Positions 7,023-60,061 of a DNA stretch of 64,000 bases are shown one piece after another. Source of the DNA: Methylotuvimicrobium alcaliphilum 20Z (GTDB taxonomy: Bacteria; Pseudomonadota; Gammaproteobacteria; Methylococcales; Methylomonadaceae). Positions within the stretch are counted from its first letter, which is position 1. The number at the start of each line of letters is the position of its first letter. Below the pieces are notes generated by a model. It had not been told where the DNA came from, made no database searches, and was given only the letters and a program-made list of their open reading frames with translations. A program made the position numbers and the translations under genes. The stretch is from the NCBI RefSeq assembly GCF_000968535.2, contig NC_016112.1, forward strand, positions 248,001 through 312,000. The letters run 5' to 3'.

Positions 7023-7815
7023 GGCGCTCGGAAAACATTGGATTCTGCTTAGAGGCTTGGCTAGGGAGTCCGCGCATTGGGGCGATTTTGTACCGCTATT
7101 GCAAGATGCATTTCCGGCATCCCGGATCAGCTTGATCGATTTGCCGGGCACAGGTTGCTATTATCGAAAGGCCAGTCCATGTTCGATACGAGCGATAGTA
7201 GAAAGTGTTCGTGGTGATGCACTCGCGAAAGGCTGGCTGGAAAAGCCTGTCTCAATTCTGGGACTTTCATTCGGCGCGATGGTTGCCTGGGAATGGTTGA
7301 GTCGTCATCCTGAAGACATTGCGGGCGAGGTTTTGATGAATACCAGCTTTGCCGATCTAAGTCCCTTTTATATGCGCTTACGTCGGCAAAGTTATCGCGA
7401 TTTTGCAGAATTGGCGATGACGCGCGATATTTTTCGACGAGAATCCCGCATTGTTCGTTTGGTTAGTAATCGTAAAGATCGGTATGAGGCGACAATCGAG
7501 GAATGGTCGCGGATACAAAAAGCACGGCCTATATCTACTAAAAATGCTTTACGGCAGATTGTTGCGGCAGCCACTTATAAGCCGAGTCATAGCAAGCCGC
7601 AACAGCCGGTTTTGTTATTGAACGGGCAGGGCGATCGTCTGGTATCGCCCGTATGTTCTGAGGCTATTCATAAAAAATGGCGTATTGAACTGCGTGCCCA
7701 TCCCTGGGCAGGCCATGATTTGACTCTCGATGACGGCGGATGGGTGGCGACGCAAATACAGGATTGGGTGTTTCAAAGAACGTCGTGCATCGACAGAGAG
7801 CCCGAGCAACTATAA
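7015..7815 (+). CDS. Alpha/beta-fold hydrolase
   Basis: A 266-residue alpha/beta hydrolase, BioH/lipase-like in layout. The nucleophile elbow is GLSFG with Ser85, an acid is likely in NGQGDRLVS near 203-211, and the catalytic His lies in WAGHDLTLDD near 234. No signal peptide, so cytosolic. It overlaps the M14 peptidase gene, suggesting a shared substrate pathway such as cleavage of an acylated peptide or amino acid; that link is inference. The stop TAA lies within the terminal TATA of repeat R1 copy C, which therefore borders directly on the coding end. Confidence 0.8.
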   Translation: MDEALGKHWILLRGLARESAHWGDFVPLLQDAFPASRISLIDLPGTGCYYRKASPCSIRAIVESVRGDALAKGWLEKPVSILGLSFGAMVAWEWLSRHPEDIAGEVLMNTSFADLSPFYMRLRRQSYRDFAELAMTRDIFRRESRIVRLVSNRKDRYEATIEEWSRIQKARPISTKNALRQIVAAATYKPSHSKPQQPVLLLNGQGDRLVSPVCSEAIHKKWRIELRAHPWAGHDLTLDDGGWVATQIQDWVFQRTSCIDREPEQL

Positions 7816-7972
7816 CCCATCGTAGATCAAAATTCGTCACCGGGGTGTTCGTCAAAGGACGCCGTGAATACATTCATGTAGGCTCTATGCCAGCTCCTTG
7901 CTGGCAAAGCCTTTGCCGCACACCCCAGTGCCTCCTCAGGCGCTGCCGAAATTTGAAGTACGAAAGGCATAG
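7811..7972. repeat. R1 repeat, copy C (inverted)
   Basis: Inverted full-length R1, running from TATAACCCATCGTAGATC to the CGAAAGGCATA end. Its first bases supply the stop codon of the hydrolase. The central hairpin (gccagctccttgctggc) is retained. Confidence 0.85.
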
Positions 7973-8101
7973 TTCAATAACTTGCTATGAGCATGTATAG
8001 AGCATTCACTCACCCAAGAGGTTAGCGAGAACGCTTAGCTAATGTCTTGAAATTCTTCAGGAACCTTGTTTTCTTCATGGTTAAGCTGCCAAATTTAGGA
8101 T
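7973..8101. repeat. Dispersed repeat R6, copy 1
   Basis: This stretch matches the reverse complement of 25672-25800 closely, including acccaagaggtta and the ttcatggttaa tail, with scattered substitutions. It is non-coding and joined directly to R1 copy C. Confidence 0.7.
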
Positions 8102-8941: not shown

Positions 8942-9438
8942 AATTTTACCTCTGTGTTAAATAAGCGGATTCATTGTACGCGCGTGCAGAAGGAAAGTAT
9001 CTCGAAATATTTCGAATGCGATTTGCTTTCGAATAGGCCTGCCAAAAAAGCAATGGGTGGTTAAATCCGCTAATTCATTTGCAAGCTACCATTTTGAATA
9101 AATTTAACTACAATCAATTCCACGCGTGCCTCCTTTTCGATTAAAGAGGCGAAGATGGGGTTTAATGTAAATAGTCTCACGCGCTTTTTTTTCTTATCAG
9201 GAGTCGGCATATCTGTGCTCCGATACCGATATAAACCGTTTTAGGAATATGCACAAATTTACTTCTACAAGTTTTAGGCATTGTGATGGTTCGGCGACTC
9301 GTTTGACAGGACGCCGTGAATACATCCATGTAAGCTCGGCGGCTATTTCTGCCGCCGACGCCCTTCAATCGAGCCACCGAACCCCCGCTCAGCATTTGTC
9401 GAAGTTATTTCATGCTCGTTCCTTATTTTGGATAATCA
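8942..9438. repeat. Intergenic region with R2-type repeat
   Basis: About 500 bp without a gene. Between about 9280 and 9405 there is a diverged R2 element: a GACAGGACGCCGTGAATAC core, the hairpin cggcggc/gccgccg and the far end atcgagccaccgaaccc. The rest shows nothing I can name; the NfeD/SPFH operon promoter should lie between 9400 and 9438. Confidence 0.55.
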
Positions 9439-9942
9439 ATGCAGGGATATGAAATTGTAAATATCTGGCTTATCGGCGGCATTATTCTCATGCTGCTGGA
9501 AATTTTGTTGCCCGGCGGGATAGTATTTTTTCTAGGTCTCGGCGCCGTTCTGGTTTCCGCTTTGCTATACGCCGGTTTGATAGAAGGCTGGTTACAAGCT
9601 TTTACCGTTTGGTTTATCGGCTCCCTAACGTTGGTCTTCGGATTGCGTGGGGTCGCCCAAAAATTCATTCCCGCACAAGTCGAACAGGGCAAGACCGATG
9701 AAGATCTGGATGCCTACGATGCAATTGCTAAAGTCTGCGAGGCTATACCCGCAGGCGGCGAGGGGCGCATTGCGTTTCGCGGAAGTACTTGGAAAGCAAG
9801 AAGCTATCGTAATGACCAAAATTTGGACGTTGGGGCCGAGGTGCGCATTATTTTTCGCGAAAATCTGGTGTGGGTGGTTGATGCCATCGAAACCAATAAA
9901 ACCATGAACGAAACCGACTCGAATAATAACTCAATAAAATAG
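9439..9942 (+). CDS. Short NfeD-family membrane protein
   Basis: A 167-residue NfeD/DUF107-type protein: transmembrane hairpins between residues about 8 and 72, then a small OB-fold-like domain (residues about 90-150) with the GRIAFRGSTWKARS and GAEVRI motifs characteristic of NfeD C-termini. Such proteins pair with SPFH/stomatin proteins in the inner membrane. It is 9 bp upstream of the first SPFH gene, which confirms the pairing. It lacks the ClpP-like protease domain found in the longer NfeD at 12185. Confidence 0.85.
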   Translation: MQGYEIVNIWLIGGIILMLLEILLPGGIVFFLGLGAVLVSALLYAGLIEGWLQAFTVWFIGSLTLVFGLRGVAQKFIPAQVEQGKTDEDLDAYDAIAKVCEAIPAGGEGRIAFRGSTWKARSYRNDQNLDVGAEVRIIFRENLVWVVDAIETNKTMNETDSNNNSIK

Positions 9943-9951
9943 GAGTACGTT

Positions 9952-10875
9952 ATGCTTACTACCCTTACGATATTCGTCATATTGGCCGGTATCATTTTTT
10001 GGAAGCTGTTGATTATCGTTCCGATGCGGCAATCTTGTGTCTTGGAGCGATTAGGCAATTTTCGATGCGTTCTGGAGCCCGGTTATCATGTTGTCGTGCC
10101 CTTTTTGGACAAGGTAGCCTATCGTCATGAGATTCGCGAGCAAGTGTTCGATATTCCGGCGCAAAGCTGCATCACCCGAGACAATATCCAGGTTGCGGTC
10201 GACGGTATCGTCTATTTGAAAGTGATGGATGCCAAACGGGCCAGTTACGGAATCGGCGATTATCAGATGGCCAGCGTTAATTTGGCGCAAACGACGATGC
10301 GTTCCGAAATCGGTAAGCTGACGCTCGGCGATACTTTTTATGAGCGCGATAAATTGAATGAAGCGATTGTACGAGAAATCGACAAAGCCTCGGACCCTTG
10401 GGGAATCAAGGTTATGCGTTACGAAATCAAAAATATTTCACCTTCTGCACAAGTGGTGCATACCTTGGAAAAGCAAATGGAGGCCGAACGCGAAAAGCGT
10501 GCGGAAATCACTTTGGCCATGGCGGAAAAAGAATCGAAAATTCTGATATCGGAAGGTCATCGTCAGGAGGCGATCAATATTTCCGAAGGCCAGAAACAAA
10601 AACGCATCAATGAGGCCTTAGGGCGCGCGAGTGAAATTGGGATACTAGCTGAAGCCTCCGCGGAGGGCTTGCAGAAAGTCGCGGCAGCCATCAAGAAGCC
10701 GGGCGGCGATATGGCGGTAAAAATGCGTTTGGTCGAGGATTTTATCGATCGAACAGGCGAGGTCATGAAAGGGGCCAACGTATCTGTGTTGCCTACCGAT
10801 CTTGCTCACATCAAAGGTCTGCTGTCGGCGCTTAATCAAAACCTGCCGGTCGCTAAAATGGGAGCAAACAAATGA
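9952..10875 (+). CDS. SPFH/stomatin-family protein 1
   Basis: A 307-residue stomatin/prohibitin homologue with one N-terminal transmembrane helix (residues about 3-25), the SPFH/Band 7 domain (VPMRQSCVLERLGNFRCVLEPG through residue about 180) and a coiled-coil flotillin-like tail rich in Glu/Ala (EKQMEAEREKRAEI, EGQKQKRINEALGRASE). These proteins form ring-like oligomers that organise membrane domains and regulate NfeD proteases. Its stop overlaps the start of the second SPFH gene by 4 bp. Confidence 0.9.
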   Translation: MLTTLTIFVILAGIIFWKLLIIVPMRQSCVLERLGNFRCVLEPGYHVVVPFLDKVAYRHEIREQVFDIPAQSCITRDNIQVAVDGIVYLKVMDAKRASYGIGDYQMASVNLAQTTMRSEIGKLTLGDTFYERDKLNEAIVREIDKASDPWGIKVMRYEIKNISPSAQVVHTLEKQMEAEREKRAEITLAMAEKESKILISEGHRQEAINISEGQKQKRINEALGRASEIGILAEASAEGLQKVAAAIKKPGGDMAVKMRLVEDFIDRTGEVMKGANVSVLPTDLAHIKGLLSALNQNLPVAKMGANK

Positions 10876-11821: not shown

Positions 11822-12122
11822 CTAACGTTCATGAAGGCTTGGCAATCACCCCTGGTGATGAAAGTTCTCGGGGAGGTGAGGATGCGGCCATTCGTCCGAC
11901 AGGACGCCGTGAATACGTCCATGTAGGCTCGGCGGCGGCGACTGATTGCCATGGATGGTATGAATGCAGATTTTGCAGGAGCAAAAATCTGCCCTGCCGC
12001 CGACGCCTGTCGGTCGAGCAACCGCACCCTCTCCGGAACCGGCATTTGCTCTGCCGAGCGCCGTATATCGAAAAATTAGATAACGAGTCTAAATCTACGA
12101 ACTTTCACAGTAAAGTTCACGA
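11822..12122. repeat. R2 repeat, long copy
   Basis: A near-complete R2 unit: left arm 'gttcatgaaggcttggcaat' with gatgaaagttctcggggaggtgagg, the core GACAGGACGCCGTGAATACGTCC, the hairpin cggcggcg...cgccgacg, the far arm GTCGGTCGAGCAACCGCACC and the tail ctacgaactttcacagtaa. It is closely similar to 52985-53243. It separates the SPFH genes from the long NfeD gene. Confidence 0.85.
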
Positions 12123-26050: not shown

Positions 26051-27127
26051 TTATTGATAACCGTCGCCCGTACCTAATAAAGCAGCGATGATGTTTTTCT
26101 GAATTTCGGACGAGCCGGAGAATAGCCGGCTAGCAAGGGCATCCTGGATTCGTTCGAGCTGTTGACCGCCTTCGAGCAAGCCGCTTGCGCCGAAAATATG
26201 CGCCGCGTCCAGGCTCGATTGCAGAAAGGCTTCGGCGGCGAATAACTTGGTCTGCGCGCTGGCCAGCGTGATGCGTTGCTTTCGATCTTTCAGGCGCGCG
26301 CACTCGTTTACCCAAAGCCGAATCGTATCCAGTCGGGTTTTCATATCTGCGATTTTATGACCGATCGCCTGGTTTTTGCCTAGATGCGCGCCGTTGACTC
26401 TGCGTTCCCGGCTGAACCGAATCACGCCTTCCAATTGCCGCTCCATCACGCCGCGGATGCCGGCAAAAATGAAGGCCCGTTCCAACTCCAGCGCTTGCTG
26501 AATCATCATGTTGCCGGCACCGGTCTTGCCCAGTTGCCGGTCGAGAGGAATCCGGCAATCGTCAAGACGAACATCGCCCATCGTGGCGTTTTTGCAGCCG
26601 GAGACTTGCGGCGTGTCGAGAAAGGCGGCGCCGGGGTCGTCGGCGTGCACGATGAAGGCGGACAATCGCGTGCCGGATCTCGCATAAACGACCAGTAAGT
26701 CTGCGATCGGCGTATTGGTGATGAAGCGTTTATGTCCGTTCAATGTGAATCCGGCATCGGTCTGCTCCGCAGTCATTGTCAACGCAGTGAGGTCGGAGCC
26801 GGCCTGGGGTTCTGTAATCGCATGACCGCCGATGCGTTTGCCTTCGAGCAGGTCATTTAGATAAGTCGCCTGTTGCTCGGCATTGCCGTAGTTCAACAGC
26901 GGAAAAACCGTGCCCCACAGATGGGCGTTGATCGATAACAACAAGCCAGGGTCCTGGCAGGCTTTGCCGAGTTGTTCATGGGCCTGCACGAGATCGGCGA
27001 AATGGTTGCCGTGACCGCCGCGGTTTTGCGGCACGGCATGTTTCAATAGGCCGAAACCGGCGCAATGACGAAAACGCGCCCGTGCGGCTTGGCTTCCGCC
27101 GGCGGCGGGTAGATTGCCGATATCCAT
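26051..27127 (-). CDS. Acyl-CoA-dehydrogenase-family enzyme, probable prolyl-carrier oxidase (PltE/RedW-like)
   Basis: A 358-residue flavoprotein of the acyl-CoA dehydrogenase fold: helical N-domain, FAD-binding ITEPQAGSDLTAL near 105 and GHKRFITNT near 131, C-terminal helices ending in SGSSEIQKNIIAALLG. The glutamate common in medium-chain enzymes (YEGT) is Ser337 here (LFSGSS), but Glu216 in LELER occupies the alternative catalytic position used by isovaleryl-CoA dehydrogenase. With the adjoining proline-like adenylation enzyme and carrier protein this fits the PltE/RedW class, which oxidises prolyl-S-carrier to pyrrolyl-2-carboxyl-S-carrier. The ATG directly follows the adenylation gene's TGA. 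Reaction is inferred, not shown. Confidence 0.75.
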   Translation of the reverse strand: MDIGNLPAAGGSQAARARFRHCAGFGLLKHAVPQNRGGHGNHFADLVQAHEQLGKACQDPGLLLSINAHLWGTVFPLLNYGNAEQQATYLNDLLEGKRIGGHAITEPQAGSDLTALTMTAEQTDAGFTLNGHKRFITNTPIADLLVVYARSGTRLSAFIVHADDPGAAFLDTPQVSGCKNATMGDVRLDDCRIPLDRQLGKTGAGNMMIQQALELERAFIFAGIRGVMERQLEGVIRFSRERRVNGAHLGKNQAIGHKIADMKTRLDTIRLWVNECARLKDRKQRITLASAQTKLFAAEAFLQSSLDAAHIFGASGLLEGGQQLERIQDALASRLFSGSSEIQKNIIAALLGTGDGYQ

Positions 27128-28573
27128 TCAGTTTCGCTCCAGTTGGCGTTGCAAGGTTTGATAATCGGTCTTGCCGTTGTCCAGTAGAGGCAAGGCATCC
27201 ATCACGCTGAACCGGCACGGCTGCATGTAGGCCGGCAGCGCCTGCTTGACTGTTTTGACAATACCGTTCAATTGGCCGCCGGGATGCAGTACCAGCGCGG
27301 CGGCGGGGCGTTGGCCGCTAGTGCTGTCTTCGATGCCGACTACGGCGCAACCGGCGACTTCCGGACATTGCAGGATCAGCGCTTCGATTTCGGCAGGTTC
27401 CACCCGGTAACCGGAACATTTGAGCATGCGGTCGAGGCGGCCGTGATAGCAGTATTCGCCGCGCTCGTTCAACGAGACTTTGTCGCCGGTCCGGTAATAG
27501 CCGCCGTCTTCCATGGCTTCGGTCAGGCGCCCTTGGCGCCAATATCCGGACAGATTGTTCGCGCTATTTACCAGCAATTCGCAGGTTTCCGTGTCGATCT
27601 TCAATTCCGAAGCGCAAGCAGGATGGCCGATCGGTATTGGTTGATCGCCGTCGAGCCGAGCCCGATCGACCGGCCAATAACAACAGACATTGGTTTCGGT
27701 CGGGCCGTAGAGATTGTAAAAATCGGTTTCGGGCAAAAGTTCGCAGAGTTTTTTCAATTGCGGCGTCGGAAATACTTCTCCGGCGAACAGTAGTGTAGTT
27801 AAATCCGGCAACGGCTGTTCGGTCAATCCGCCCTTTAGCGCGATGAAGCCGAGCAAAGAGGGCACCGTGTAAAACACGGTGATGCGCTGCTCAAGCAGCC
27901 AGGCCGTCAGGCGGCTGGGCGACAAGGTCAGGCCGGCCGGCACGAAATTAACGCTAGCGCCGGCGCTCAGACTGCTGAATATATCGAATACGGACAAATC
28001 GAAATAAAAAGGCGCCAGCGAAGCGATACGGTCGTCGGCTTTGAGCTTGAACGTGCGCGCCGCCCAATCGGCGAAATTGTGCAATGCGCGATGACTCAAC
28101 GCGACGCCCTTCGGCGTGCCGGTCGAACCCGAAGTGTACAGAATTGCCGCCAAGGCTTCGGGGTCGATGGCAACGGGAGGCTTGACCAATTTGGCAGGCT
28201 TGGGCAGTTGCTCGATATCGAGCCAAAGCGCCGGTGTGTCGAGCCAATCGGGACAGCTTCCTTGGCCGATGATGCAGTGAACGTTGGCGTCGTTGACGAT
28301 GAAGCGCAAGCGTTGAGCCGGATTTTTGATATCCAGCGGGATGTAACACGCGCCGCAACGCAGGATCGACAGAATCGCTATGACCGCATCGATACCGCGG
28401 TCCAATGCCAGCGCGATGCGAGCGCCGGGCTCGATCCGTGTGGCCAAATGGGCGGCAAGGTGTTCAGTGTTAACCCTGACTTCGCGGTAACTCAGTCGAC
28501 GTTCGCTTTCAATCAGCGCCGGGCGGTCCGGTGCGTTTCGGCATTGCCGGTCGAATGCTGTCAGTAAGGGCAT
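27128..28573 (-). CDS. Stand-alone amino-acid adenylation enzyme with proline-like pocket (PltF-like)
   Basis: A 481-residue member of the ANL superfamily. Core motifs: A3 YTSGSTGTPKG (146-156), A4 FYFDLSVFD (189-197), A5 NLYGPTE (287-293), A7 YRTGD, A8 near GRLDRMLKCSGYRVEPAE, A10 NGKTD. Aligning by eye to GrsA gives pocket residues D192, L193, F196, Y235, L262, A264, L288, V296, C297 plus the A10 Lys. That agrees at all but the third position with the DLLYLALVCK code I recall for prolyl-AMP ligases PltF and RedM. It should load an amino acid, probably proline, onto the neighbouring carrier protein. The gene is separated from the upstream gene by a repeat insertion and abuts the dehydrogenase gene. 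Confidence 0.82.
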   Translation of the reverse strand: MPLLTAFDRQCRNAPDRPALIESERRLSYREVRVNTEHLAAHLATRIEPGARIALALDRGIDAVIAILSILRCGACYIPLDIKNPAQRLRFIVNDANVHCIIGQGSCPDWLDTPALWLDIEQLPKPAKLVKPPVAIDPEALAAILYTSGSTGTPKGVALSHRALHNFADWAARTFKLKADDRIASLAPFYFDLSVFDIFSSLSAGASVNFVPAGLTLSPSRLTAWLLEQRITVFYTVPSLLGFIALKGGLTEQPLPDLTTLLFAGEVFPTPQLKKLCELLPETDFYNLYGPTETNVCCYWPVDRARLDGDQPIPIGHPACASELKIDTETCELLVNSANNLSGYWRQGRLTEAMEDGGYYRTGDKVSLNERGEYCYHGRLDRMLKCSGYRVEPAEIEALILQCPEVAGCAVVGIEDSTSGQRPAAALVLHPGGQLNGIVKTVKQALPAYMQPCRFSVMDALPLLDNGKTDYQTLQRQLERN

Positions 28574-28582
28574 GATCGAGAA

Positions 28583-28866
28583 TTAGGATTTCGTAATAAA
28601 TAACGTCCTGGAACTATGAGCTTTGTTGAGGGTACGCTAACTCGCATGGTAGGACGCCGTGAATACGTCCGTGTAGGCTTGACGGCGGCGACTAATTGCC
28701 ATGGATGGCATGAATGCAGATTTTGCATTACGCCATGGATGGCGTGTATTAGGGCAATGCAGGAGCAATTGCCGAGGAGCAAAAATCTGCCCTGCCGCCG
28801 ACACCTGCCAATCGAGCAACCGAACCCTCCGTAAAATAGGGGAGTTATTTACGACCAAATCCTTAA
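28583..28866. repeat. R7 hairpin repeat carrying an R2 insertion
   Basis: The outer arms (28583-28633 and 28828-28866) reproduce the roughly 89-bp repeat seen uninterrupted at 61192-61280. Between them lies a roughly 194-bp R2-type unit (TAGGACGCCGTGAATACGTCC core, cggcggcg hairpin, atcgagcaaccgaaccctc end). It fills the whole space between the condensation-like and adenylation genes. Confidence 0.8.
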
Positions 28867-28872
28867 AACGAT

Positions 28873-30204
28873 TCAATCCGTCTCTCCCAGCAGTTCCGCC
28901 AGCATCAGCCGGTGCAATGCATCAATGGCTTCGGCATCGGCTATCGGTTCGATATAGTTATAGCTCAAGGTCAAACGATTGCGGAAAATACAGTTCAGAA
29001 AAGCCAGCGACGGCGGTGACGTGACTTGGCAGGCATGGAACACGTCGGTGATTTCGGCGCCGGGGAAACTGTCCGCTGGAAGATCCAGACGGCCGATATC
29101 GGAAAACCAGAATGAACTGCGCTCCCGACCGGAACCGTAAGAAAGGCGCAAGACCTTGCCGTATTCGGCCAGCGACAGCCAACTGCCGGCCCACATCAGC
29201 GGCAGAAAGGCATAGTCTTCTTGTTGACGAATCACTTGGGCGTTTTGTTGTTTCAGATGTTCGAACAGTTTTTGCCGGTCCTTGACGACTTCCCGAGGCG
29301 CCTGTGCGAACAACGCGCTGAGATGATTACCGTTGACCGGCGATAAGGCGCGCTGTTTGCGCAAATTGAATGCATAAGGCACGCAATAAGCCTCGCCCGG
29401 ACTGTCGGGACGCCATTTTTCGAGGGCGCGCATCAGACAGCCGATGTAATAAAGACTGGTGCCGGTTAAGCCGACCTGTTGCCTGGCCAGTTTGACGATC
29501 CGTTCGGTTTGTTCCTCGCTGAGCCTGCGAACCGCGAACTCGAGGCGTTGCGGCGGTTGTTCGTGGCGCAACGGTTGAATGCTGCTCAGTCTATCCAGCC
29601 TGTCGATATAGCGTTTGCCTTTCAGCAATAGCGAAATTTTTTGCCACCAGCGGTATTTACGTAACTGTTCGAATACAAGCGGACCGGTTTCGGGATGGCC
29701 GAAGCGTTGACGTTGTTCGGCATCGGCGGTACACAGATATTTGATGATCAGATCCGCGCCGCGCGCATCGCAAAAAGGATGCAGCCAACGCATCAGAAAA
29801 ACGTTTTCGGACGGGCCGGTCAGCAGATGAAACTCGAGCGGAGCGACGCTCTCCCGAGGCTGCTTTTCGTTCATGATCCGGTCGAGCGTGGCGTGCCGGA
29901 ATTCTGCTTCATCCGCGCCGGTCGGGCAATGATGCTGAAAAAACAAGTCGGGCGGATCGGAGCGCTTGCACCAATAGAAACGTTTGCCGATTTGACTCAG
30001 GCTGGCGCGGGCTACCGGAAAACGCCGACCGAATTCGTCGATTCGCTGTTGTAATGCGTCGATATCCGGAATATTGGCGAGTTCCAATCCGTAACACGCC
30101 AAACTGCCGGCCAAGCCGTCTCGGCGGATTTCCTCGTCCATTGCCAGCGTGAAACTGTCGGCCGGGTTCAGCCTTTCCAAAATGGCGGACTTATCGGTGC
30201 TCAT
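28873..30204 (-). CDS. Condensation-domain-like acyltransferase
   Basis: The 443-residue soluble protein resembles stand-alone condensation/PapA/wax-synthase-type CoA- or carrier-dependent acyltransferases. The catalytic motif appears as H142-PFC-D146-AR-G149 in MRWLHPFCDARGADL, a variant of HHxxxDG in which the first His is Leu. The C-terminal half contains VPYAFNLRKQRAL and a SYGSGRERSSFWFSDIG stretch comparable to the family's latch and D-F-G region. It overlaps the carrier-protein gene by 4 bp, so it probably transfers an acyl group from that carrier; acceptor unknown. Confidence 0.65.
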   Translation of the reverse strand: MSTDKSAILERLNPADSFTLAMDEEIRRDGLAGSLACYGLELANIPDIDALQQRIDEFGRRFPVARASLSQIGKRFYWCKRSDPPDLFFQHHCPTGADEAEFRHATLDRIMNEKQPRESVAPLEFHLLTGPSENVFLMRWLHPFCDARGADLIIKYLCTADAEQRQRFGHPETGPLVFEQLRKYRWWQKISLLLKGKRYIDRLDRLSSIQPLRHEQPPQRLEFAVRRLSEEQTERIVKLARQQVGLTGTSLYYIGCLMRALEKWRPDSPGEAYCVPYAFNLRKQRALSPVNGNHLSALFAQAPREVVKDRQKLFEHLKQQNAQVIRQQEDYAFLPLMWAGSWLSLAEYGKVLRLSYGSGRERSSFWFSDIGRLDLPADSFPGAEITDVFHACQVTSPPSLAFLNCIFRNRLTLSYNYIEPIADAEAIDALHRLMLAELLGETD

Positions 30205-30440
30205 CCGTTTTTATACCTTAATATCCAACGTTCCAATGCGTTAAAGGATTGCACATTGTCCGGTTCGATTTCGGTATCGGGCAGGGTGACGCCGAATTCG
30301 TTTTCGATGTACATAATCAAGCGCATGATGCCCATGCTGTCCAGGCCCGCTTCGAGCAAATCGTCGTCGTCGCCGAATTGATTCGGCTCGGCGACGAAAA
30401 CGAGCTCTTGAAAGATAAAGTCGCGCAGTTTCTTTTTCAT
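30201..30440 (-). CDS. Peptidyl/acyl carrier protein (PltL-like)
   Basis: A 79-residue four-helix carrier protein with the phosphopantetheine site Ser35 in EAGLDSMGIMRL and the acidic helix ENEFGVTLPDTEIEPDN that follows in ACP/PCP proteins. It is the first gene of the leftward arm and overlaps the acyltransferase start by 4 bp. It probably receives the aminoacyl group from the adenylation enzyme and presents it to the dehydrogenase. It is the only carrier protein visible in the cluster, so the ketosynthases must use it or a carrier encoded elsewhere. Confidence 0.9.
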   Translation of the reverse strand: MKKKLRDFIFQELVFVAEPNQFGDDDDLLEAGLDSMGIMRLIMYIENEFGVTLPDTEIEPDNVQSFNALERWILRYKNG

Positions 30441-30997
30441 GACTCAGGTAAGGTATAATTTGTCGGTTAAATGATAGCCGATTAAGGCAAGTAGAGTCAC
30501 GGAAAAGGGCGATTCCCTTTGGGATTAGGTACTGAACATCACGCAGGGCGGGTTATTTAACCATGCGCATCAAGCCAGGGATGTCGCTAAAATTATCTTC
30601 CTGATTCGCTTCGAGTTTCGTGTAGAGTCAAATTCATTGAATTCAGGACGCTGAGGACTTCGAAATAAACCGTGGAAGTTGAGCGTCGGTGGCTTTCCCT
30701 CACCTAGCGTTAGGTGAGGGACGACGAAGGCGTCGCTCCCACAGCGGGTGATTCATGCACCGTGGCAGCGATCCCCTGATCGCGATTTCGATGCCGAAAA
30801 TGTCAAGCTACAATAAATGGCATCGATGTCACAAAGACTAAAATATGCGGTTACCCAAGCTGGGGCTTGGGAAAGAGCGGGGTACGGATTGGCCGTTTTT
30901 AGCTTGACGCGTATGGATTACAACCTTCGTCCTGCTTAGGCACAAATTATTTATAAACATCCACATAGGTTAGCAATGGCAAAACAGGCGGGTTCGC
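30441..30997. promoter_or_regulatory. 557-bp divergent promoter region with repeats
   Basis: Both arms of the biosynthetic cluster start from here. A TATAAT-like hexamer lies at about 30463-30468. 30696-30721 is a perfect 11-bp stem hairpin (tccctcaccta-gcgt-taggtgaggga) repeated at 62138-62163. 30720-30795 is an inverted R5 fragment, and 30835-30905 matches 38800-38852 (cccaagctgg...gcttgggaaagagcg). No gene is seen. Confidence 0.55.
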
Positions 30998-32233
30998 ATG
31001 AGAGCTGAAAAAGGCAATATCGTTATTATCGGAGCGGGGCCTGCGGGCAGTATTGCCGCGGCATTGCTCAATAACAAAGGATACCGGGCCGTGATCTTGG
31101 AGCGGGATGCTTTTCCGCGCTTCAGCATCGGCGAAAGCCTACTGCCGCAATGCATGGAGTTCATCGAACAGGCCGGCATGCTCGATGCCGTGCGCAATGC
31201 CGGTTTTCAATTGAAGGACGGTGCGGCGTTTTTATTTCAAGGCAAGCACTGCGAATTCTGGTTCGCCGACAAATTCACGGCCGGCTTCGATTCGACCTAT
31301 CAAGTTCAGCGCGACCGCTTCGATGCGCTGCTAGCCGCCGAGGCGCAACGTATGGGCGTGGACATCCGCTGGCGTCAGGAAGTCGTCGAGGCCGACTTCA
31401 GCGGCGAGCAGCCGGTGTTGACGGTCAAGGATAGGGACAGCGAAGACCGCTACCGCATGACCGCCGATTTCGTGCTCGATGCCAGCGGTTTCGGGCGGGT
31501 GTTGCCGCGTTTGTTGGATTTGGAAAAACCGTCCGGTTTTCCGGTGCGACAGGCCGTGTTCACGCATATCGAAGACAGAATCGACGATCCGCGCTACGAT
31601 CGCAACAAAATTCGCATCATCGTGCATCCCGAATTGACCGATGTCTGGTATTGGCTGATTCCGTTCAGCAATGGGCGTTGCAGTCTCGGCGTGGTCGGCG
31701 AAGCGAAGATTCTTAAGGTTTCGGAGCGCGACCCGCAAGCGGTGCTGAAGCAATTCGTCGACGCCGAGCCGGGCTTGTCGGCGCTGCTGCATAATGCCGT
31801 GTTCGATACGCCGGTCAATAGCATCGGCGGTTACAGTGCCAACGTCAAGCGGCTGCACGGCAAAGGCTACGCGCTATTGGGTAATGCCGGCGAGTTTCTC
31901 GATCCGGTCTTTTCCTCGGGCGTCACGATCGCGATGAAATCGGCAAGCCTCGCCGCCGAGGTAGTGGACCGGCAGCTCCGCGGCATGGCAGTCGATTGGC
32001 AAAAGGAATTTGCCGAACCCTTGCAAAAAGGCGTCGATACCTTCCGCACTTTCGTCAGCTCATGGTATGACGGCGGCTTGCAGGATGTGGTGCTTTATCA
32101 ACAGCAGCAGCCCAATATCAAAGCGATGATTTGTTCGATTCTGGCCGGCTATGTTTGGGATGAAAACAATCCGTATGTCAAAAACTCCGAACCTCGGTTG
32201 AAGACCCTGGTCGAATTGTGTCGCGAGCCTTGA
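30998..32233 (+). CDS. FAD-dependent oxidoreductase of the flavin-halogenase family
   Basis: A 411-residue flavoprotein. Residues 12-17 are the GAGPAG dinucleotide motif; GESLLPQCMEF (45-55) and DASGFGRVLP (161-170) are further FAD contacts. W217-Y-W-L-I-P222 fits the WxWxIP signature of FADH2 halogenases, and Lys73 in FQLKDGAAF lies where phenol/pyrrole halogenases keep their catalytic lysine. The same protein type also occurs in aryl polyene clusters, where halogenation has not been shown, so oxidoreductase is the safe call. It is 5 bp upstream of the first ketosynthase and leads the rightward operon. Confidence 0.78.
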   Translation: MRAEKGNIVIIGAGPAGSIAAALLNNKGYRAVILERDAFPRFSIGESLLPQCMEFIEQAGMLDAVRNAGFQLKDGAAFLFQGKHCEFWFADKFTAGFDSTYQVQRDRFDALLAAEAQRMGVDIRWRQEVVEADFSGEQPVLTVKDRDSEDRYRMTADFVLDASGFGRVLPRLLDLEKPSGFPVRQAVFTHIEDRIDDPRYDRNKIRIIVHPELTDVWYWLIPFSNGRCSLGVVGEAKILKVSERDPQAVLKQFVDAEPGLSALLHNAVFDTPVNSIGGYSANVKRLHGKGYALLGNAGEFLDPVFSSGVTIAMKSASLAAEVVDRQLRGMAVDWQKEFAEPLQKGVDTFRTFVSSWYDGGLQDVVLYQQQQPNIKAMICSILAGYVWDENNPYVKNSEPRLKTLVELCREP

Positions 32234-32237
32234 GAAA

Positions 32238-33419
32238 ATGACGCTGTATCTCAATGATCTCGGCATCCTATCGGTGGCCGGCGGCAATGGCGTCGAAATG
32301 TTGTCGAGACTGCTGGCGGGAAACCGTTCCGGCTTGATCGAGACCGATGAATATTCGCCGGGCAAGCCGTTTTATGTTGGCGAGATTCGTGCCGAACTAC
32401 CTGAAATCGAAAAACGATACAGCGTTTACGATTGCAAAAACAATCGATTGTTACTCGCGGCCTTGAATCAAATTCAAGCGGGCGTCGACCGCATTAAACG
32501 GAAATACCGCACGGATCGAATCGGCGTGGTGATCGGCACCAGCACTTCCGGCGTCAGAAATACCGAGCTGGCGATTGCCGCGGTTGCAGGCGGTCTCGAA
32601 AAGCCGTCCGGATTTCATTACAAGCAACAACAATTGGCCGGCGGAGCCGATTTTTTGGCGCATCGGCTCGATTTGAAAGGCCCGGCCTATTCGGTATCGA
32701 CGGCCTGTTCCTCGAGTGGCCGGGCTTTTGTTTCGGCCCGAAGGTTGATCGAGCTGGATATTTGCGATGCCGTCATCGTCGGCGGCGCGGATAGTCTGTG
32801 CCGCTTCACCGTGAACGGTTTCGCTGCATTGGAGTCGGTATCGGCGGGTTTGTGCAAGCCTTTCGGACGGCACCGGGACGGCATCAATTTATCGGAAGCC
32901 GCAGCCTTGTTCATCTTGAGCCGGGACGAAGGCCCCGTGCGACTCGGCGGAATCGGTGCCAGCAGCGATGCGTATCATTTTTCCGCGCCCGACCCCGGCG
33001 GCGCGGCCGTGGTTAAGGCGATGCAAACGGCATTGATCGAAGCCCGGATGACCGCCGAGCAAATAGACTATATTAATCTACATGGCACGGCCACGCCGTT
33101 GAACGATGCGATGGAAAGCGCGGCGGTCGTCGAAGTTTTCGACCGTTCGGTCGCGGCCAGTTCGACCAAAGGCATGACCGGGCACGCCTTAGGCGCGGCC
33201 GGCGCACTCGAGCTGGGTCTGTGTTGGCTGCTGCTGAATAGCGATGATGAAGAGGGCGCATTGCCGCCGAACGTCAACGGCGATGCGTTGGACGACTCGT
33301 TGCCGTCCTTGAATTTAGTGCAGGCGGGGCAAGTTTTAGGCAGGCGTATCGAACATTGCCAGAGCAATTCTTTCGCTTTCGGCGGCAATAATATTTCGAT
33401 TGTCGTGTCGCGTGTATGA
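32238..33419 (+). CDS. Beta-ketoacyl-ACP synthase, ApeO-like
   Basis: A 393-residue thiolase-fold ketosynthase with the complete triad: Cys157 in VSTACSSSGRAF, His in NLHGTATPLND (about 284) and His in GMTGHALGAAG (about 318). It is shorter than FabF (about 412). Position and size match ApeO, the first of the two ketosynthases of aryl polyene loci, which are followed by dehydratase, ketoreductase and a second ketosynthase. Its stop overlaps the dehydratase ATG (ATGA). It should extend the polyene chain by decarboxylative condensation with malonyl-ACP. Confidence 0.87.
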   Translation: MTLYLNDLGILSVAGGNGVEMLSRLLAGNRSGLIETDEYSPGKPFYVGEIRAELPEIEKRYSVYDCKNNRLLLAALNQIQAGVDRIKRKYRTDRIGVVIGTSTSGVRNTELAIAAVAGGLEKPSGFHYKQQQLAGGADFLAHRLDLKGPAYSVSTACSSSGRAFVSARRLIELDICDAVIVGGADSLCRFTVNGFAALESVSAGLCKPFGRHRDGINLSEAAALFILSRDEGPVRLGGIGASSDAYHFSAPDPGGAAVVKAMQTALIEARMTAEQIDYINLHGTATPLNDAMESAAVVEVFDRSVAASSTKGMTGHALGAAGALELGLCWLLLNSDDEEGALPPNVNGDALDDSLPSLNLVQAGQVLGRRIEHCQSNSFAFGGNNISIVVSRV

Positions 33420-33856
33420 TCGCTTATTCGATAGAGCAATTATTGCCGCATGCCGGCAAGTTGATGTTGTTGGATCATGTGTTGACCTACGACGACGAGT
33501 CGATGAGTGCGCAAGTAACCGTGCGCGGCGACGGTCTGTTCGGCGACAACACCGGCGTTCCGGCTTGGTTGGGTATCGAATACATGGCGCAAACGGTGGC
33601 GGCGCATGGCGGCTTGATGTGCCGTTTGGCCGGAAAACCGCTCAATCCCGGCTTTTTATTGGGTACGCGGCGTTATCATTGCAATGTGAGCCGGCTTAAC
33701 GCCGGGGCGGTGCTGGTCGTGACGGTCAAGCGCCTTATACAGGATCAAGGCTTGGGCGTGTTCGATTGCCGAGTGACCGGCGATAGCGTGGAAATTTCGG
33801 CTAAACTGAGTGTTTATCAACCCGATACGGCAATCAATCGGGTCATCACAAACTAA
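33416..33856 (+). CDS. Hotdog-fold 3-hydroxyacyl-ACP dehydratase, ApeP-like
   Basis: A 146-residue single hotdog domain. The catalytic His lies in LPHAGKLMLLD (residue about 11) and the acid in WLGIEYMAQTVAAHGG (Glu about 59), the arrangement of ApeP-type dehydratases. It removes water after ketoreduction to leave a conjugated double bond. It is translationally coupled to the preceding ketosynthase. The last 99 bp are repeated at 34140-34238, just before the ketoreductase gene, with some 280 bp of repeats between the copies. Confidence 0.85.
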   Translation: MIAYSIEQLLPHAGKLMLLDHVLTYDDESMSAQVTVRGDGLFGDNTGVPAWLGIEYMAQTVAAHGGLMCRLAGKPLNPGFLLGTRRYHCNVSRLNAGAVLVVTVKRLIQDQGLGVFDCRVTGDSVEISAKLSVYQPDTAINRVITN

Positions 33857-34139
33857 GTAATTGTTTCAAAATAATTACCCGGTTTTATCGGCCAGTATCA
33901 GGTAACGCTTCCAGAAGACGCCGTGAATATATCCCTATAGGCTTGGGCGCGGCGTCCATGCCGCGCACACTTCTTCCAGCGTTACCTGATACTAGCCAAA
34001 TCGGGAAATAAATTTTGGACCCTAGCAGGACGGGGTTTGCAACCCCGTCCTAAACGTTTTGACTTTGGCCGAAGTCAGCCGAAATGTTTAGGGCAAACCG
34101 AAACGTTGGGGACGGGTTAAATAACCCGTCCCGCAGAAG
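33857..34139. repeat. Repeat insertion within the polyene operon, including R4
   Basis: 33893-34008 is a hairpin element with arms ggccagtatcaggtaacgcttcc and gcgttacctgatactagcc around an R-type core (gacgccgtgaatata). 34020-34136 is repeat R4: AGGACGGGG..CCCCGTCCT and GGGACGGG..CCCGTCCC hairpins joined by a gtcagccgaaatgtt linker; an inverted near-identical copy lies at 56654-56775. It splits the dehydratase and ketoreductase genes. Confidence 0.8.
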
Positions 34140-34238
34140 GTGTTCGATTGCCGAGTGACCGGCGACGGCGTGGAAATTTCGGCCAAACTGAGTGTTTATC
34201 AACCCGATACGGCAATCAATCGGGTCATCACGAAATAA
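34140..34238 (+). pseudogene. Duplicated 3' end of the dehydratase gene
   Basis: These 99 bp repeat 33758-33856 with only a handful of differences and would encode the same last 32 residues (VFDCRVTGD ... INRVIT) with a TAA stop. There is no start codon in frame. It looks like the original gene-border sequence left behind, or a duplicate made, when the repeats moved in. Confidence 0.9.
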
Positions 34239-34247
34239 AGAAACAGC

Positions 34248-34973
34248 ATGAATGAAACAGTATTAGTGACGGGCTCCAGCCGGGGCATCGGCAAGGCGAT
34301 CGCTTTGTATCTGGCGCGCAAGGGTTACGATGTAGTCGTGCATTGCCGCAGCCGCCGAAGCGAGGCCGAGCAAGTTGCGCAGGAAATTAAGGCCATCGGC
34401 CGGGCAGCCCGCATTTTGCAATTCGATTTGGCGGACCGCAAGCAATGCAGTGCGGCGATCGAGCAAGATATCGACGAATACGGCGCTTATTACGGCGTGG
34501 TCTGTAATGCCGGCGTGACTTGCGACAATGCCTTTCCGGCTTTGACCGGCGAGGAATGGGACAGCGTCATACATACTAATCTGGACGGTTTTTATAACGT
34601 ACTGAATCCTCTGATTATGCCGATGATCCGGCGGCGCAAACCCGGCCGTATCGTCACGCTGTCGTCGGTTTCGGGCCTGATCGGCAATCGCGGCCAGGTC
34701 AACTACAGCGCCGCGAAGGCCGGCATCATCGGCGCGACCAAGGCGTTGGCGTTGGAACTGGCTAAACGCAATATCACGGTCAATTGCGTCGCGCCGGGCT
34801 TGATCGATACCGAAATGCTCGACGAGTTGCCGCTTGAGGAAATCAAAAAAATGATTCCGATGCGTCGGGTCGGTTCGGCCGATGAAGTCGCGGCCACGGT
34901 CGGTTTTTTAATGTCAGAGGAAGCCGCATATATCACCAGGCAGGTGATTTCGGTCAACGGAGGGTTGTGCTGA
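34248..34973 (+). CDS. 3-oxoacyl-ACP reductase (FabG/ApeQ-like)
   Basis: A 241-residue short-chain dehydrogenase. NADPH motif TGSSRGIGKAIA (7-18), NAG in VVCNAGVTCDN, catalytic Ser in SSVSGLIG and Tyr-x-x-x-Lys in VNYSAAKAG (about 151-155), and the FabG-type ending VISVNGGLC. It reduces the 3-keto intermediate of the polyene chain. Its stop (TGA) overlaps the ATG of the second ketosynthase. Confidence 0.9.
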   Translation: MNETVLVTGSSRGIGKAIALYLARKGYDVVVHCRSRRSEAEQVAQEIKAIGRAARILQFDLADRKQCSAAIEQDIDEYGAYYGVVCNAGVTCDNAFPALTGEEWDSVIHTNLDGFYNVLNPLIMPMIRRRKPGRIVTLSSVSGLIGNRGQVNYSAAKAGIIGATKALALELAKRNITVNCVAPGLIDTEMLDELPLEEIKKMIPMRRVGSADEVAATVGFLMSEEAAYITRQVISVNGGLC

Positions 34974-36193
34974 TGAAACGCGTCGTGGTAACGGGCATGG
35001 CCGCGATCACGCCTATCGGCAACGATTGGGCGACGGTCGCGGATAATCTGAAAGCGCAAAACACCGGCATTCGCCGGATGGACGATTGGGATAAATACAA
35101 CGGCTTGAATACCCGGCTCGGCGGGCCGGTCGATTTCACGCGGCCCGCGCATTATTCGCGCAAGCAAGTACGGGGCATGGGCCGGGTCGCGATGCTGGCG
35201 ACCTATGCCACCGAATTGGCCTTGCAGGATGCCGGATTGCTGAATGACCCGGTTTTGAAAAGCGGCCGTACCGGGGTCTCTTACGGCAGTTCGTCCGGTA
35301 GTTTCGACGGCTTGATCGACTTTACCAAGATGCTGCTGAATTTCGACAAGGGCGGCTTGAACGCGACATCCTATATCCGCATGATGGGGCATACCTGCCC
35401 GGTCAATATCAGTCTGCATTTCGGCGTCAACGGCCGCATTATTCCGACCTCGAGCGCTTGTACATCGAGCAGTCAGGGCATCGGTTATGCCTACGAAGCG
35501 ATCAAACACGGCCAACAAACCGTGATGATCGCAGGCGGCAGCGACGAATTGTCCGCCTCGCAAGCGGCGGTGTTCGACACCTTGTTCGCGACCAGTCTGC
35601 GCAACGACGAACCGGATAAATCGCCGCGTCCGTTCGACCGGGACCGCGACGGCCTGGTCATCGGCGAAGGCGGCGGCACCTTCATTCTGGAAGAGCGCGA
35701 ACATGCCTTGAGCCGCGGGGCGACGATTCATGCCGAGATCGTCGGTTTCGGCACCAATTGCGACGGTCTGCATGTCACGCAACCGGACAGCACGAGCATG
35801 CAGGTCGCAATGCAATTGGCGCTGCAAGACTCGGGTCTGGATCCTGCGGCAATCGGTTATGTCAGCGCACACGGCACCGCGACCGAGTTGGGTGACATCG
35901 CCGAAAGTCATGCTACGGCAGCCGTATTGGGCAGCAAGATTCCGATCAGCTCAATGAAAAGTTATACCGGCCATACGCTCGGCGCTTGCGGCTCGATCGA
36001 AGCCTGGGCGGCGGTCCGGATGATGAACGAAGGTTGGTTCCATCCGACCGCGAATCTGGATGCTGTCGACCCCAAATGCGCGGAGCTCGATTATATTCAA
36101 GGAGCTGTGCGTAAGCTGGAATGCGATTATTTGATGAGTAATAATTTCGCCTTCGGCGGCATCAATACCTCATTAATTTTCAAGCGGGTTTGA
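34973..36193 (+). CDS. Beta-ketoacyl-ACP synthase II-like, ApeR-like
   Basis: A 406-residue ketosynthase of FabF size. Cys in TSSACTSSSQGIGYA (about 164), His in SAHGTATELGD (about 302) and His in SYTGHTLGACGS (about 335) complete the catalytic triad. It corresponds to ApeR, the last gene of the apeO-P-Q-R block. I use the ATG at 34973 that overlaps the reductase stop; a GTG 6 bp upstream is possible. Both ketosynthases of the cluster look active, so neither is a simple chain-length factor with lost cysteine. Confidence 0.88.
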   Translation: MKRVVVTGMAAITPIGNDWATVADNLKAQNTGIRRMDDWDKYNGLNTRLGGPVDFTRPAHYSRKQVRGMGRVAMLATYATELALQDAGLLNDPVLKSGRTGVSYGSSSGSFDGLIDFTKMLLNFDKGGLNATSYIRMMGHTCPVNISLHFGVNGRIIPTSSACTSSSQGIGYAYEAIKHGQQTVMIAGGSDELSASQAAVFDTLFATSLRNDEPDKSPRPFDRDRDGLVIGEGGGTFILEEREHALSRGATIHAEIVGFGTNCDGLHVTQPDSTSMQVAMQLALQDSGLDPAAIGYVSAHGTATELGDIAESHATAAVLGSKIPISSMKSYTGHTLGACGSIEAWAAVRMMNEGWFHPTANLDAVDPKCAELDYIQGAVRKLECDYLMSNNFAFGGINTSLIFKRV

Positions 36194-36203
36194 GTGGCAG
36201 GCC

Positions 36204-37154
36204 ATGGCGAAACTCATGACCGTGACCGCCAATACGGCGATCGATTTATTGCTCGAAGTCGAAAGTTTTGCGTTTGGCGAAACGCTGTCGGCCAGTCGTA
36301 GCGCCGAATTCGCCTGCGGAAAAGGCATCAATGTCGCGAAGGCTATCGAGTCGCAGGGTAGTGAGGTTTTATGTCTGGGCTTTGCGGGAGCCCGGTCGGT
36401 CGACGCGTTTCATGCCTTGCAAACCGAGCGGCTCACAACCGATTTGACAGTGGTCTCCGGCAAGACGCGCACCAACATTACGCTGCATGATTCGGCGAGC
36501 GGCCGGGAAACCCATATACGAACCGCAGGGTTTAGCGTTACGGAAGACGATTGCCGCCGCTTATGCGAAAGCGTCGAATCTCATGCCGAGCCCGGCGCTA
36601 TCGTGATCATTTCCGGCAGTCTGCCGCCCGGAGCGCCAAACGATTTCTATCGTAGCCTCATCAAGGTCTGTCGCGAGCGCGGGGTGACGACGTTTTTGGA
36701 TGCCAGCGACTCCGGCTTGAGTCTCGGCATCGAAGCCAAGCCTGATGCGATCAAACCGAATCAACAAGAGCTCGAAGCCTTGCTCGGTAAGTCCTTGCCG
36801 GACGAACGCAGTATCGCCGAAGCTGCCAAGGAACTGGTCGGTCAAGGCATTCAACGGGTCTATGTCTCAAGGGGCGAGCACGGCTGCATTGCCGCCTACG
36901 AGAACATGGCGGTATCGGCTTATCTGAATACAGCGCCGGAACGAATCGTCAGTCGCGTCGGCTGCGGCGATGCGCTGGTGGCAGGTCTAGCGGTCGCGGC
37001 GCGGCAAGGTCTGGATGCTAAGACCGCGTTGAGACTGGGCGTGGCTTGCGGTTCGGCGAATCTGTTTTCGCCGGAGCCGGGCCGGTTTGAACCGACCCGT
37101 GTCAATGAGATTATTTCACGTATCGTGGTTGAGGATATCCTGACTTCTGTCTGA
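36204..37154 (+). CDS. PfkB-family sugar kinase (1-phosphofructokinase-like)
   Basis: A 316-residue ribokinase-fold kinase. GKGINVAKAIESQG near 39-52 matches the N-terminal PfkB signature, IISGSLPPGAP and KPNQQELEALLG are typical of the FruK/LacC/PfkB branch, and the anion hole with the catalytic Asp is RVGCGDALVAGLA (about 251). It phosphorylates a hexose phosphate or related sugar. It begins 11 bp after the second ketosynthase, so it is co-transcribed with the polyene genes; why a sugar kinase belongs there is unclear (sugar modification or chance read-through). Confidence 0.85.
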   Translation: MAKLMTVTANTAIDLLLEVESFAFGETLSASRSAEFACGKGINVAKAIESQGSEVLCLGFAGARSVDAFHALQTERLTTDLTVVSGKTRTNITLHDSASGRETHIRTAGFSVTEDDCRRLCESVESHAEPGAIVIISGSLPPGAPNDFYRSLIKVCRERGVTTFLDASDSGLSLGIEAKPDAIKPNQQELEALLGKSLPDERSIAEAAKELVGQGIQRVYVSRGEHGCIAAYENMAVSAYLNTAPERIVSRVGCGDALVAGLAVAARQGLDAKTALRLGVACGSANLFSPEPGRFEPTRVNEIISRIVVEDILTSV

Positions 37155-42920: not shown

Positions 42921-43079
42921 TATACCTTTCGCACTTCAAATTTTGGCAGTGCCAGAGGAGGTGCCTGGGTGTCCGACAAAGGCTTTGCCAGCATGGAGCT
43001 GGCATAGAGCCTACATGGACGTATTCACGGCGTCCTTTGGCGGACACCAGGCGCCGAATTTTGATCTACGACGGGTATA
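42921..43079. repeat. R1 repeat, copy E
   Basis: A clean 159-bp R1 running TATACCTTTCGCACTTC to GATCTACGACGGGTATA, with the hairpin gccagcatggagctggc in the middle. It is a good reference for the uninterrupted element and lies between archease and the quinone oxidoreductase gene. Confidence 0.9.
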
Positions 43080-43274
43080 TGTAAAATATATTAGACTTCT
43101 CTAATATACGAATCTATAATCCGAATCCAACAGGATCGGAAATTCAGGATGGTGACCGATCCGTCGGCTAATCATGCAAGTTAATCAAAGGCTTGCGCTA
43201 TTTTACTCGCTGCAGTCATGTTTTGTCGGGAGCGACGCGGACATCTTGCGATTTTTTACAGCAGGTGAGGGCTT

Positions 43275-52984: not shown

Positions 52985-53243
52985 ATCTGCGAACTTTCAC
53001 AGTAACGTCCATGAAGGTCTAGCCATCGCCCCGGCAAATGAAAGTTCTCTGGTGGGGAGGGTACGGTCACTCGCCCGACAGGACGCCGTGAATACATCCA
53101 TGTAGGCTCGACGGCGGCTTTCCCTGCCGCCGACGCCTGTCGGTCGAGCAACCGCACCCTCTCCGGAACCGGCATTTGCTCTGTCGAGCGCCGTATATCG
53201 AAAAATTAGATAAAGGGTCTATATCTACGAACTTTCACAGTAA
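52985..53243. repeat. R2 repeat, long copy, with direct repeats at its ends
   Basis: A nearly complete R2 (matching 11822-12122): GAAAGTTCTCTGGTGGGGAGGG, GACAGGACGCCGTGAATACATCC, cgacggcgg hairpin, GTCGGTCGAGCAACCGCACC, and tcgaaaaattagata. The sequence GCGAACTTTCACAGTAA begins it (52989) and ACGAACTTTCACAGTAA closes it (about 53227), possibly a target-site or internal duplication. Confidence 0.8.
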
Positions 53244-56569: not shown

Positions 56570-56895
56570 GTTGAGATAGTAAACTTTAACCTGATTAGCA
56601 AGATGCTTCAGCTTGCTGAGGCCAACTGTCCAAGCAGTGGCCAGTCTTAGCCACTTCTGCGGGACGGGTTATTTAACCCGTCCCCAACTTTTCGGTTTGC
56701 CCTAAACATTTCGGCTGACTTCGGCCAAAGTCAAAACGTTTAGGACGGGGTTGCAAACCCCGTCCTGCTAGGGATATGCTGGTTTTTGGGCTTTAGCTGA
56801 AGAAACTTGCTAATCAGGAACTTTAATCCTAGAAAAAGCATTTCACCATGAAGGTCGTGAAGGATAAGAAGTTAATTCAATAACTTGTTAAGCGC
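56570..56895. repeat. R8 fragment, R4 copy 2 and R6 fragment
   Basis: 56590-56650 is an R8 piece (ctgattagcaagatgcttcagcttgc). 56654-56775 is R4, the inverted near-identical partner of 34020-34136. 56825-56895 is R6-like (catttcaccatgaaggtcgtgaagg). No gene. Confidence 0.78.
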
Positions 56896-59990: not shown

Positions 59991-60061
59991 GGCATCGAAT
60001 AATTTTACAAATGTGAAAGCCTATCGATTTTTCATTCAATGGTTCGAGTTATGACTATCGC

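Follow-up and report, generated by a model that had tools for sequence, protein, structure and literature searches.

Within a 64,000-nucleotide stretch of the Methylotuvimicrobium alcaliphilum 20Z chromosome (G000:C2:248001-312000, hereafter the window, where G000 is our label for this genome of 4,796,711 bases on two contigs), four leftward genes predicted to load and oxidize proline on a carrier protein stand back to back with a rightward biosynthetic core of aryl polyene (APE) type. All ten open reading frames (ORFs) of the initial annotation were found at the same positions, given here in window coordinates with the short names used below.

26051-27127 (-): ACAD, putative flavoprotein of the prolyl-peptidyl carrier protein (PCP) dehydrogenase type, PltE/RedW/AnaB-like; Pfam Acyl-CoA_dh
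27128-28573 (-): ADEN, predicted stand-alone L-proline adenylation enzyme; Pfam AMP-binding; pocket DLFYLALVCK
28873-30204 (-): CLIKE, stand-alone condensation-fold enzyme; H142PFCDARG
30201-30440 (-): PCP, carrier protein; Pfam PP-binding; GLDSMG, with DSM at residues 34-36
30998-32233 (+): FLAVO, halogenase-family flavoprotein of the APE core; Pfam Trp_halogenase; GAGPAG, WYWLIP
32238-33419 (+): KS1, ApeO-type ketosynthase (KS); Pfam ketoacyl-synt; C157, H282, H315
33416-33856 (+): DH, ApeP-type hotdog dehydratase; Pfam ApeP-like, 69.8 bits against a cut-off of 27
34248-34973 (+): KR, ketoreductase in the ApeQ position, FabG family; Pfam adh_short
34973-36193 (+): KS2, ApeR-type ketosynthase; Pfam ketoacyl-synt
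36204-37154 (+): PfkB, 1-phosphofructokinase type; Pfam PfkB

The leftward genes form a prolyl cassette (26051-30440, minus strand) in the order PCP, CLIKE, ADEN, ACAD; the PCP and CLIKE genes share 4 bases, and the ACAD start adjoins the ADEN stop. FLAVO, KS1, DH, KR and KS2 follow one another on the plus strand (30998-36193), with PfkB next. KS2 probably starts at ATG 34973 rather than at GTG 34967, where the ORF opens.

ADEN is, by its aligned pocket, a proline-selecting enzyme. We read the pocket by alignment with PltF, PigI and GrsA-type landmarks. The comparison took in ADEN and 20 of 32 prolyl-type proteins identified (n=21): all ten places were identical in 15 proteins, and the other six had one or two places changed to other hydrophobic residues. 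At nine pocket columns compared by eye, PltF carries D-L-L-Y-L-A-L-V-C, matching ADEN at eight of nine, and PigI carries D-L-F-Y-I-A-W-V-C. The top PDB matches of ADEN were modules of nonribosomal peptide synthetases (NRPSs; linear gramicidin synthase); its best stand-alone relative was PltF (6o6e), with PigI (7thn) two places lower. The ACAD profile matched 4irn (prolyl-acyl carrier protein (ACP) dehydrogenase) best, then 6cxt, deposited as a butyryl-coenzyme A (CoA) dehydrogenase, then 5zw0 (prolyl-PCP dehydrogenase), and residue E216 was invariant in 19 aligned rows. Because its best NCBIfam models, PigA (284 bits, cut-off 500) and RedW (274 bits, cut-off 650), both score below their cut-offs, ACAD is a divergent relative of these enzymes. 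Family membership and pocket together suggest that ADEN would load L-proline onto PCP and that ACAD would then form a dehydroprolyl or pyrrole-2-carboxyl thioester by oxidation. A stand-alone proline adenylation enzyme, an ACAD-type dehydrogenase and a carrier protein are likewise combined in PltF/PltE/PltL, PigI/PigA/PigG, RedM/RedW/RedO and AnaC/AnaB/AnaD. The window cassette differs in its fourth gene, the stand-alone condensation-fold enzyme, and in accompanying an APE system, whereas the known modules accompany a pyrrole-extending polyketide synthase (PKS).

The core beside the cassette is of APE type. In the PDB, KS1 matched 6qsp (322 bits) and 7f28 (283 bits), far above FabF-type chains, the next match scoring 141; KS2 matched 4ewg (524 bits) and 7f27 (517 bits), with the next chain at 259. 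Among NCBIfam models, KS1 passed PRK09185 and KS2 passed PRK09116. PMC8358021 equates 6QSP with ApeO-ApeC, assigns 4EWG to ApeR and also describes an Acinetobacter baumannii pair; we read 7f28 and 7f27, from their names and residue numbers, as that pair. The same source models 4-hydroxybenzoate (4-HB) near ApeO H138, A166 and F205 and near ApeR Y135 and F202. All five residues are kept in KS1 and KS2, as compared by eye in printed alignments; this cavity could perhaps take a pyrrole as well. KR passed two NCBIfam FabG equivalog models and in relatives also lies between DH and KS2, and DH carries the ApeP-like family PF22817. FLAVO belongs to the halogenase family by sequence, but its relatives include non-halogenating enzymes and halogenating activity is putative. 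The initial annotation had proposed both an adenylation enzyme that activates proline and an APE-type KS-DH-KR-KS core, and the pocket alignment, the stand-alone and dehydrogenase relatives and the ketosynthase and dehydratase matches bear out both proposals; its refuting condition, KS proteins grouping away from APE synthases, was checked by similarity alone, with no tree, and did not refute the proposal: KS1 and KS2 match ApeO and ApeR.

The remaining APE genes lie elsewhere on the chromosome. A first region (C2:4189184-4199430) holds a CrtISO-like flavin adenine dinucleotide (FAD) enzyme, a thioesterase-like stretch (60% identity over L142:4710-5111), an acyltransferase, a glycosyltransferase, an ApeH-ApeI fusion, an ApeG-like gene, ApeF, ApeE and ApeC. 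The fusion (C2:4195919-4197613) joins AMP-binding to an ApeI-like part (PF22818), with a conserved core and an open reading frame. ApeE and ApeF were recognized by sequence as neighbouring ORFs carrying LGLDSID and DFDSIDA, and the ApeC chain length factor (CLF) is a Ketoacyl-synt_2 protein at C2:4198717-4199430. A second region (C2:4229983-4236182) holds a gene we call lipo, which matched no Pfam or NCBIfam family, a second ApeG-like stretch, and LolA and MMPL (C2:4233233-4236182), with PF19574 and PF03176 found. A second halogenase-family flavoprotein, FL2, lies at C2:4249081-4250403. The ACP pair, LolA, MMPL exporter and thioesterase, whose absence from the window the initial annotation had remarked, are indeed outside it, but all are present on the chromosome. 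With APE systems of the E. coli CFT073, Xenorhabdus doucetiae and A. baumannii type, the genome thus shares homologues of ApeO, ApeC, ApeR, KR, ApeP, ApeI, ApeE/ApeF, ApeG, ApeH, thioesterase, LolA and MMPL/RND; it differs in scattering them over at least three chromosomal places and in adding the prolyl cassette, halogenase-family flavoproteins and a CrtISO-like enzyme.

This inventory bears on whether a pyrrole starter takes the place of the aryl one. According to PMC8253772, the predicted role of E. coli ApeH is to open the pathway through activation of 4-HB, and the X. doucetiae enzyme activated 4-HB in vitro without a CoA intermediate. The M. alcaliphilum ApeH retains SHQHIYGLLF and YGSSETGGIAWR. 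We aligned 24 fused ApeHI proteins: seven from genomes with the prolyl cassette (M. alcaliphilum included, a broken copy from G020 excluded), three from genomes with a parallel cassette described below and 14 from genomes with neither. The ApeH active-site blocks were the same in the seven cassette-bearing and the 14 cassette-free genomes, and a single column, within the ApeI half, discriminated them at a cut of at most one exception in its own group and at most two in the cassette-free group. Across 121 genomes (M. alcaliphilum and 120 relatives), an ApeH-type match (E≤1e-20) was found in 71, including 35 of the 36 with the cassette (one of these matches broken), and a strong ApeHI match without either cassette occurred in 22. 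Mainly because the ApeH blocks are unchanged with or without the cassette, a pyrrole used instead of a 4-hydroxyphenyl starter is disfavoured; the retention of ApeH in 35 of 36 genomes, and of the fusion and ACP pair on this same chromosome, speaks likewise against the replacement first proposed for this locus.

CLIKE is a stand-alone condensation-fold enzyme as predicted by its structural model. It matched no family in Pfam or NCBIfam, and a sequence search of the PDB gave four matches, no condensation enzyme among them. Its HxxxDxxG motif begins at residue 142; H142, D146 and G149 were invariant in 27 aligned rows, and in a 46-row alignment H142 and D146 were invariant and G149 was kept in at least 90%. 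An AlphaFold model from the 46-sequence alignment scored a predicted local distance difference test (pLDDT) of 93 and a predicted template modelling score (pTM) of 0.92. The best Foldseek match of this model was 8s6l (named AzeD dehydratase; template modelling (TM) score 0.79/0.80, 15% identity); no other entry among the 50 listed exceeded a TM score, normalized to CLIKE, of 0.69, and these 49 include TRI3 (0.69), PapA5 (1q9j, 0.61) and condensation, epimerisation and heterocyclisation domains of NRPSs. AzeD and PapA5 share the fold and single-chain size of CLIKE, although AzeD is only about 15% identical and the pathways differ. From this fold, we infer that CLIKE may transfer a group.

CLIKE was found in 40 of the 121 genomes at E≤0.001 and in 36 at E≤1e-60, M. 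alcaliphilum included. Since it is kept in these 36 and the ratio of nonsynonymous to synonymous substitution rates (dN/dS) against a congener is 0.08-0.20 across the four cassette genes, the cassette is more than a chance assembly. ADEN and ACAD were present in all 36 (41 genomes searched; the ACAD of G006, at 37% identity, is doubtful), and G070 has both with no CLIKE match. In 29 of these genomes, all four genes are on the same contig. The CrtISO-like gene (E≤1e-60) occurred in 40 genomes, namely 35 of the 36 with the cassette (not G059) plus G012, G034, G053, G070 and G073; an MMPL exporter, MMPL-B (E≤1e-140), occurred in 38, namely 34 of the 36 (not G038 or G100) plus G012, G034, G053 and G070. 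By Fisher tests that ignore relatedness, the cassette thus co-occurs with the CrtISO-like gene in 35 genomes (p=7e-24) and with MMPL-B in 34 (p=3e-23). FLAVO (E≤1e-100) showed no such association, being found in 38 genomes, 15 with the cassette and 23 without (p=0.14). A scan of named genomes confirmed 68 of 86 candidates as loci, whose titles give Methylococcales, methanotrophic symbionts or a higher rank alone, with one saying Thiotrichaceae; the locus of Methylotuvimicrobium buryatense 5G (L070) was 100% identical over CLIKE. Of 369 genomes drawn from across the class, eight matched the CLIKE profile at E≤0.001: M. alcaliphilum, G004, G179 (2e-198), whose locus is identical to L099, and five weak matches. 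One locus (L219, G052:C56, about 9700-9970) holds a CLIKE remnant at 42% identity, with stop codons in the G052 match, beside a short KS1-like stretch, which suggests that this lineage has lost the cassette. In a Gigantopelta endosymbiont (G020; L187, L027), PCP, CLIKE, ADEN and ACAD are open while the ApeH match has stop codons, and the pathway could be in partial decay.

Across these genomes the genes fall into two sets. Set A comprises FLAVO, KS1, DH, KR, KS2, ApeC-E-F-G-HI, the glycosyltransferase, the acyltransferase and the thioesterase, and is present in cassette-free genomes (L163-L182, not all of these loci holding all the genes). Set B comprises the prolyl cassette, the CrtISO-like gene, FL2 and MMPL/LolA, to which many loci add their own ApeH-type ligase, KS, CLF and ACP; most of it lies in a single block at L099/L231 and L101. 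Two genomes of the Methylomonas type hold both sets in one region (G041, L039 and L192; G063, L040 and L193). In the M. alcaliphilum genome we saw no second Methylomonas-type KS (the search for a second CLF was not genome-wide), the other KS matches being FabF/FabB-like, KS2 itself or a 1984-residue PKS frame, and found no second ApeH-type ligase near the similarity of the first. Since the prolyl cassette here abuts the core of set A and no second KS or ApeH-type ligase was found, the window appears to combine two merged APE-type systems instead of showing a change of starter.

A parallel cassette stands directly before FLAVO in G012, G034 and G053 (L057, L056 and L189). It consists of a carrier protein, a condensation-like protein (CL2; HVLMDARG in L056), an FAD oxidoreductase and an AMP (adenosine monophosphate) ligase with different pocket-column letters. 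In L056, the one locus given Pfam assignments, the oxidoreductase is a FAD_oxidored protein and the condensation-like protein has no Pfam family; a sequence search of the PDB with CL2 gave no match. Further parallel-type loci are L058, L059 and L232, and parallel-type genes at 22-34% identity occur in G148, outside the order Methylococcales. The two cassettes are not strict alternatives, as parallel-type genes adjoin a prolyl adenylation gene in G023 (L058). Because both combine a ligase, a carrier, a flavin enzyme and a condensation-like enzyme, they suggest interchangeable end-group modules.

Our preferred, if tentative, account is that an accessory prolyl cassette may have joined an otherwise complete, scattered APE core, with a prolyl or pyrrolyl group being attached to an aryl-primed polyene; we favour it because an aryl ligase and a prolyl cassette are parts of the same systems. 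ADEN would load PCP with L-proline, and ACAD would oxidize the bound proline to the dehydroprolyl or pyrrole-2-carboxyl thioester. Separately, ApeH-ApeI, ApeE/ApeF, KS1-ApeC, KR, the dehydratases and KS2 would build the polyene from an aryl acid, by homology presumably 4-HB. CLIKE would then attach the prolyl or pyrrolyl group, through an ester or amide bond, to the polyene or to the lipid-sugar anchor of the polyene, and the product would leave by the co-occurring MMPL/LolA route. Extended to the Methylococcales, the idea of a two-ended membrane pigment, aryl-primed, with a proline-derived pyrrole at the other end or on the sugar-lipid anchor and an end group set by an exchangeable cassette, is a more speculative possibility. 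Several points weigh against attachment to an aryl-primed chain. The nearest fold to CLIKE is named a dehydratase, so its transfer role is uncertain, and ApeH could serve a different acid. The ApeH-type match of G020 is interrupted by stop codons, and the 36th cassette genome, G103, has the ApeI part only. The cassette is split over two or three contigs in seven of the 36 genomes (G006, G007, G011, G023, G037, G059 and G060), some with fragmented assemblies, and the co-occurrence tests take no account of relatedness. With no cross-genome association, the adjacency of cassette and FLAVO is lineage-specific. In the pyoluteorin and prodigiosin pathways, moreover, a ketosynthase takes pyrrolyl-PCP directly, which fits priming.

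Priming would mean that pyrrolyl-PCP feeds KS1-ApeC or KS2, with CLIKE shifting the starter from PCP to an ACP, and that pyrrole-ended polyenes arise beside or instead of aryl-ended ones. The proline pocket of ADEN agrees with this, as does the arrangement of the cassette, divergent from and adjoining the KS core in the window, its genus and the sister loci L024, L025 and L028; in the Methylomonas-type loci L039, L108 and L109 the cassette is accompanied by a second KS, CLF, ACP and flavoprotein. But ApeH is kept with its active-site blocks unchanged, the residues around 4-HB are retained in both ketosynthases, FLAVO, the first core gene, occurs in 23 genomes that lack the prolyl cassette, and no second KS of that type was seen here, leaving priming, even alongside the aryl starter, rather unlikely. 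It is less likely still that the cassette yields a small compound of its own, derived from proline, and sits beside the APE genes through a neighbourhood effect. G020 would fit this, with four open cassette genes beside a fused ApeH match bearing stop codons and a cassette locus (L027) that has no other queried gene within 20 kb; yet that genome retains KS1, FLAVO, KS2 and MMPL elsewhere, the cassette co-occurs almost perfectly with the CrtISO-like gene and MMPL-B, and L099/L231 unites an ApeH-type ligase, KS, CLF, MMPL and the cassette in a single block. We consider it slightly more improbable again that CLIKE is an AzeD-like modifying (dehydrating) enzyme acting on a carrier-bound or released intermediate, with another acyltransferase attaching the unit: AzeD stands out from all other listed matches in fold, but at only 15% identity, and H142 and D146, invariant in 46 rows, and the nearly invariant G149 count against this reading.

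Few bacterial pigments are as widespread as aryl polyenes, and attachment of a proline-derived group, kept across methanotrophs, would if true constitute a new kind of aryl polyene. Cassette bearers include culturable Methylotuvimicrobium and Methylomonas, and methanotrophs limit methane release. Flexirubin and xanthomonadin pathways also combine an APE core with tailoring, including a halogenase-family flavoprotein; flexirubins bear dialkylresorcinol, not proline, and we know of no prolyl module in either pathway. In the open-licence literature, judged by titles and abstract openings, we found no description of an APE system combined with a prolyl or pyrrole unit and no paper on the pocket string DLFYLALVCK; a search for AzeD gave mostly unrelated words. 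APE clusters are reported as dominant in Methylococcaceae in PMC11964084, whose main text does not contain the word pyrrole, and the APE tailoring named in part of PMC8253772 is methylation and halogenation.

Loci of the genus have PfkB next to the core, but it is under weaker constraint than the remaining genes, with the highest dN/dS of the ten against the congener (0.31). Its ORF cluster held eight records, some duplicating one genome, with no match in L024, and it is probably outside the pathway. Scans of the window for Rfam families and tRNAs gave no matches, and a promoter and terminator scan found no more sites than in shuffled sequences. The gap between DH and KR contains an insertion-like segment: the final 99 bases of DH (33758-33856) are repeated at 34140-34238 (95% identity), and 120 bases at 34020-34139 recur in inverted orientation at 56654-56773 (99%). 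DH keeps its 146 residues. Dispersed repeats of several families, 40-160 bases long and mainly intergenic, occur at 5714-5896, 7815-7977, 9284-9384, 11877-12113, 28585-28873 (in the CLIKE-ADEN gap), 42921-43080, 53056-53243, 56937-57096, 60050-60190 and 61998-62221, and also in other loci of the genus.

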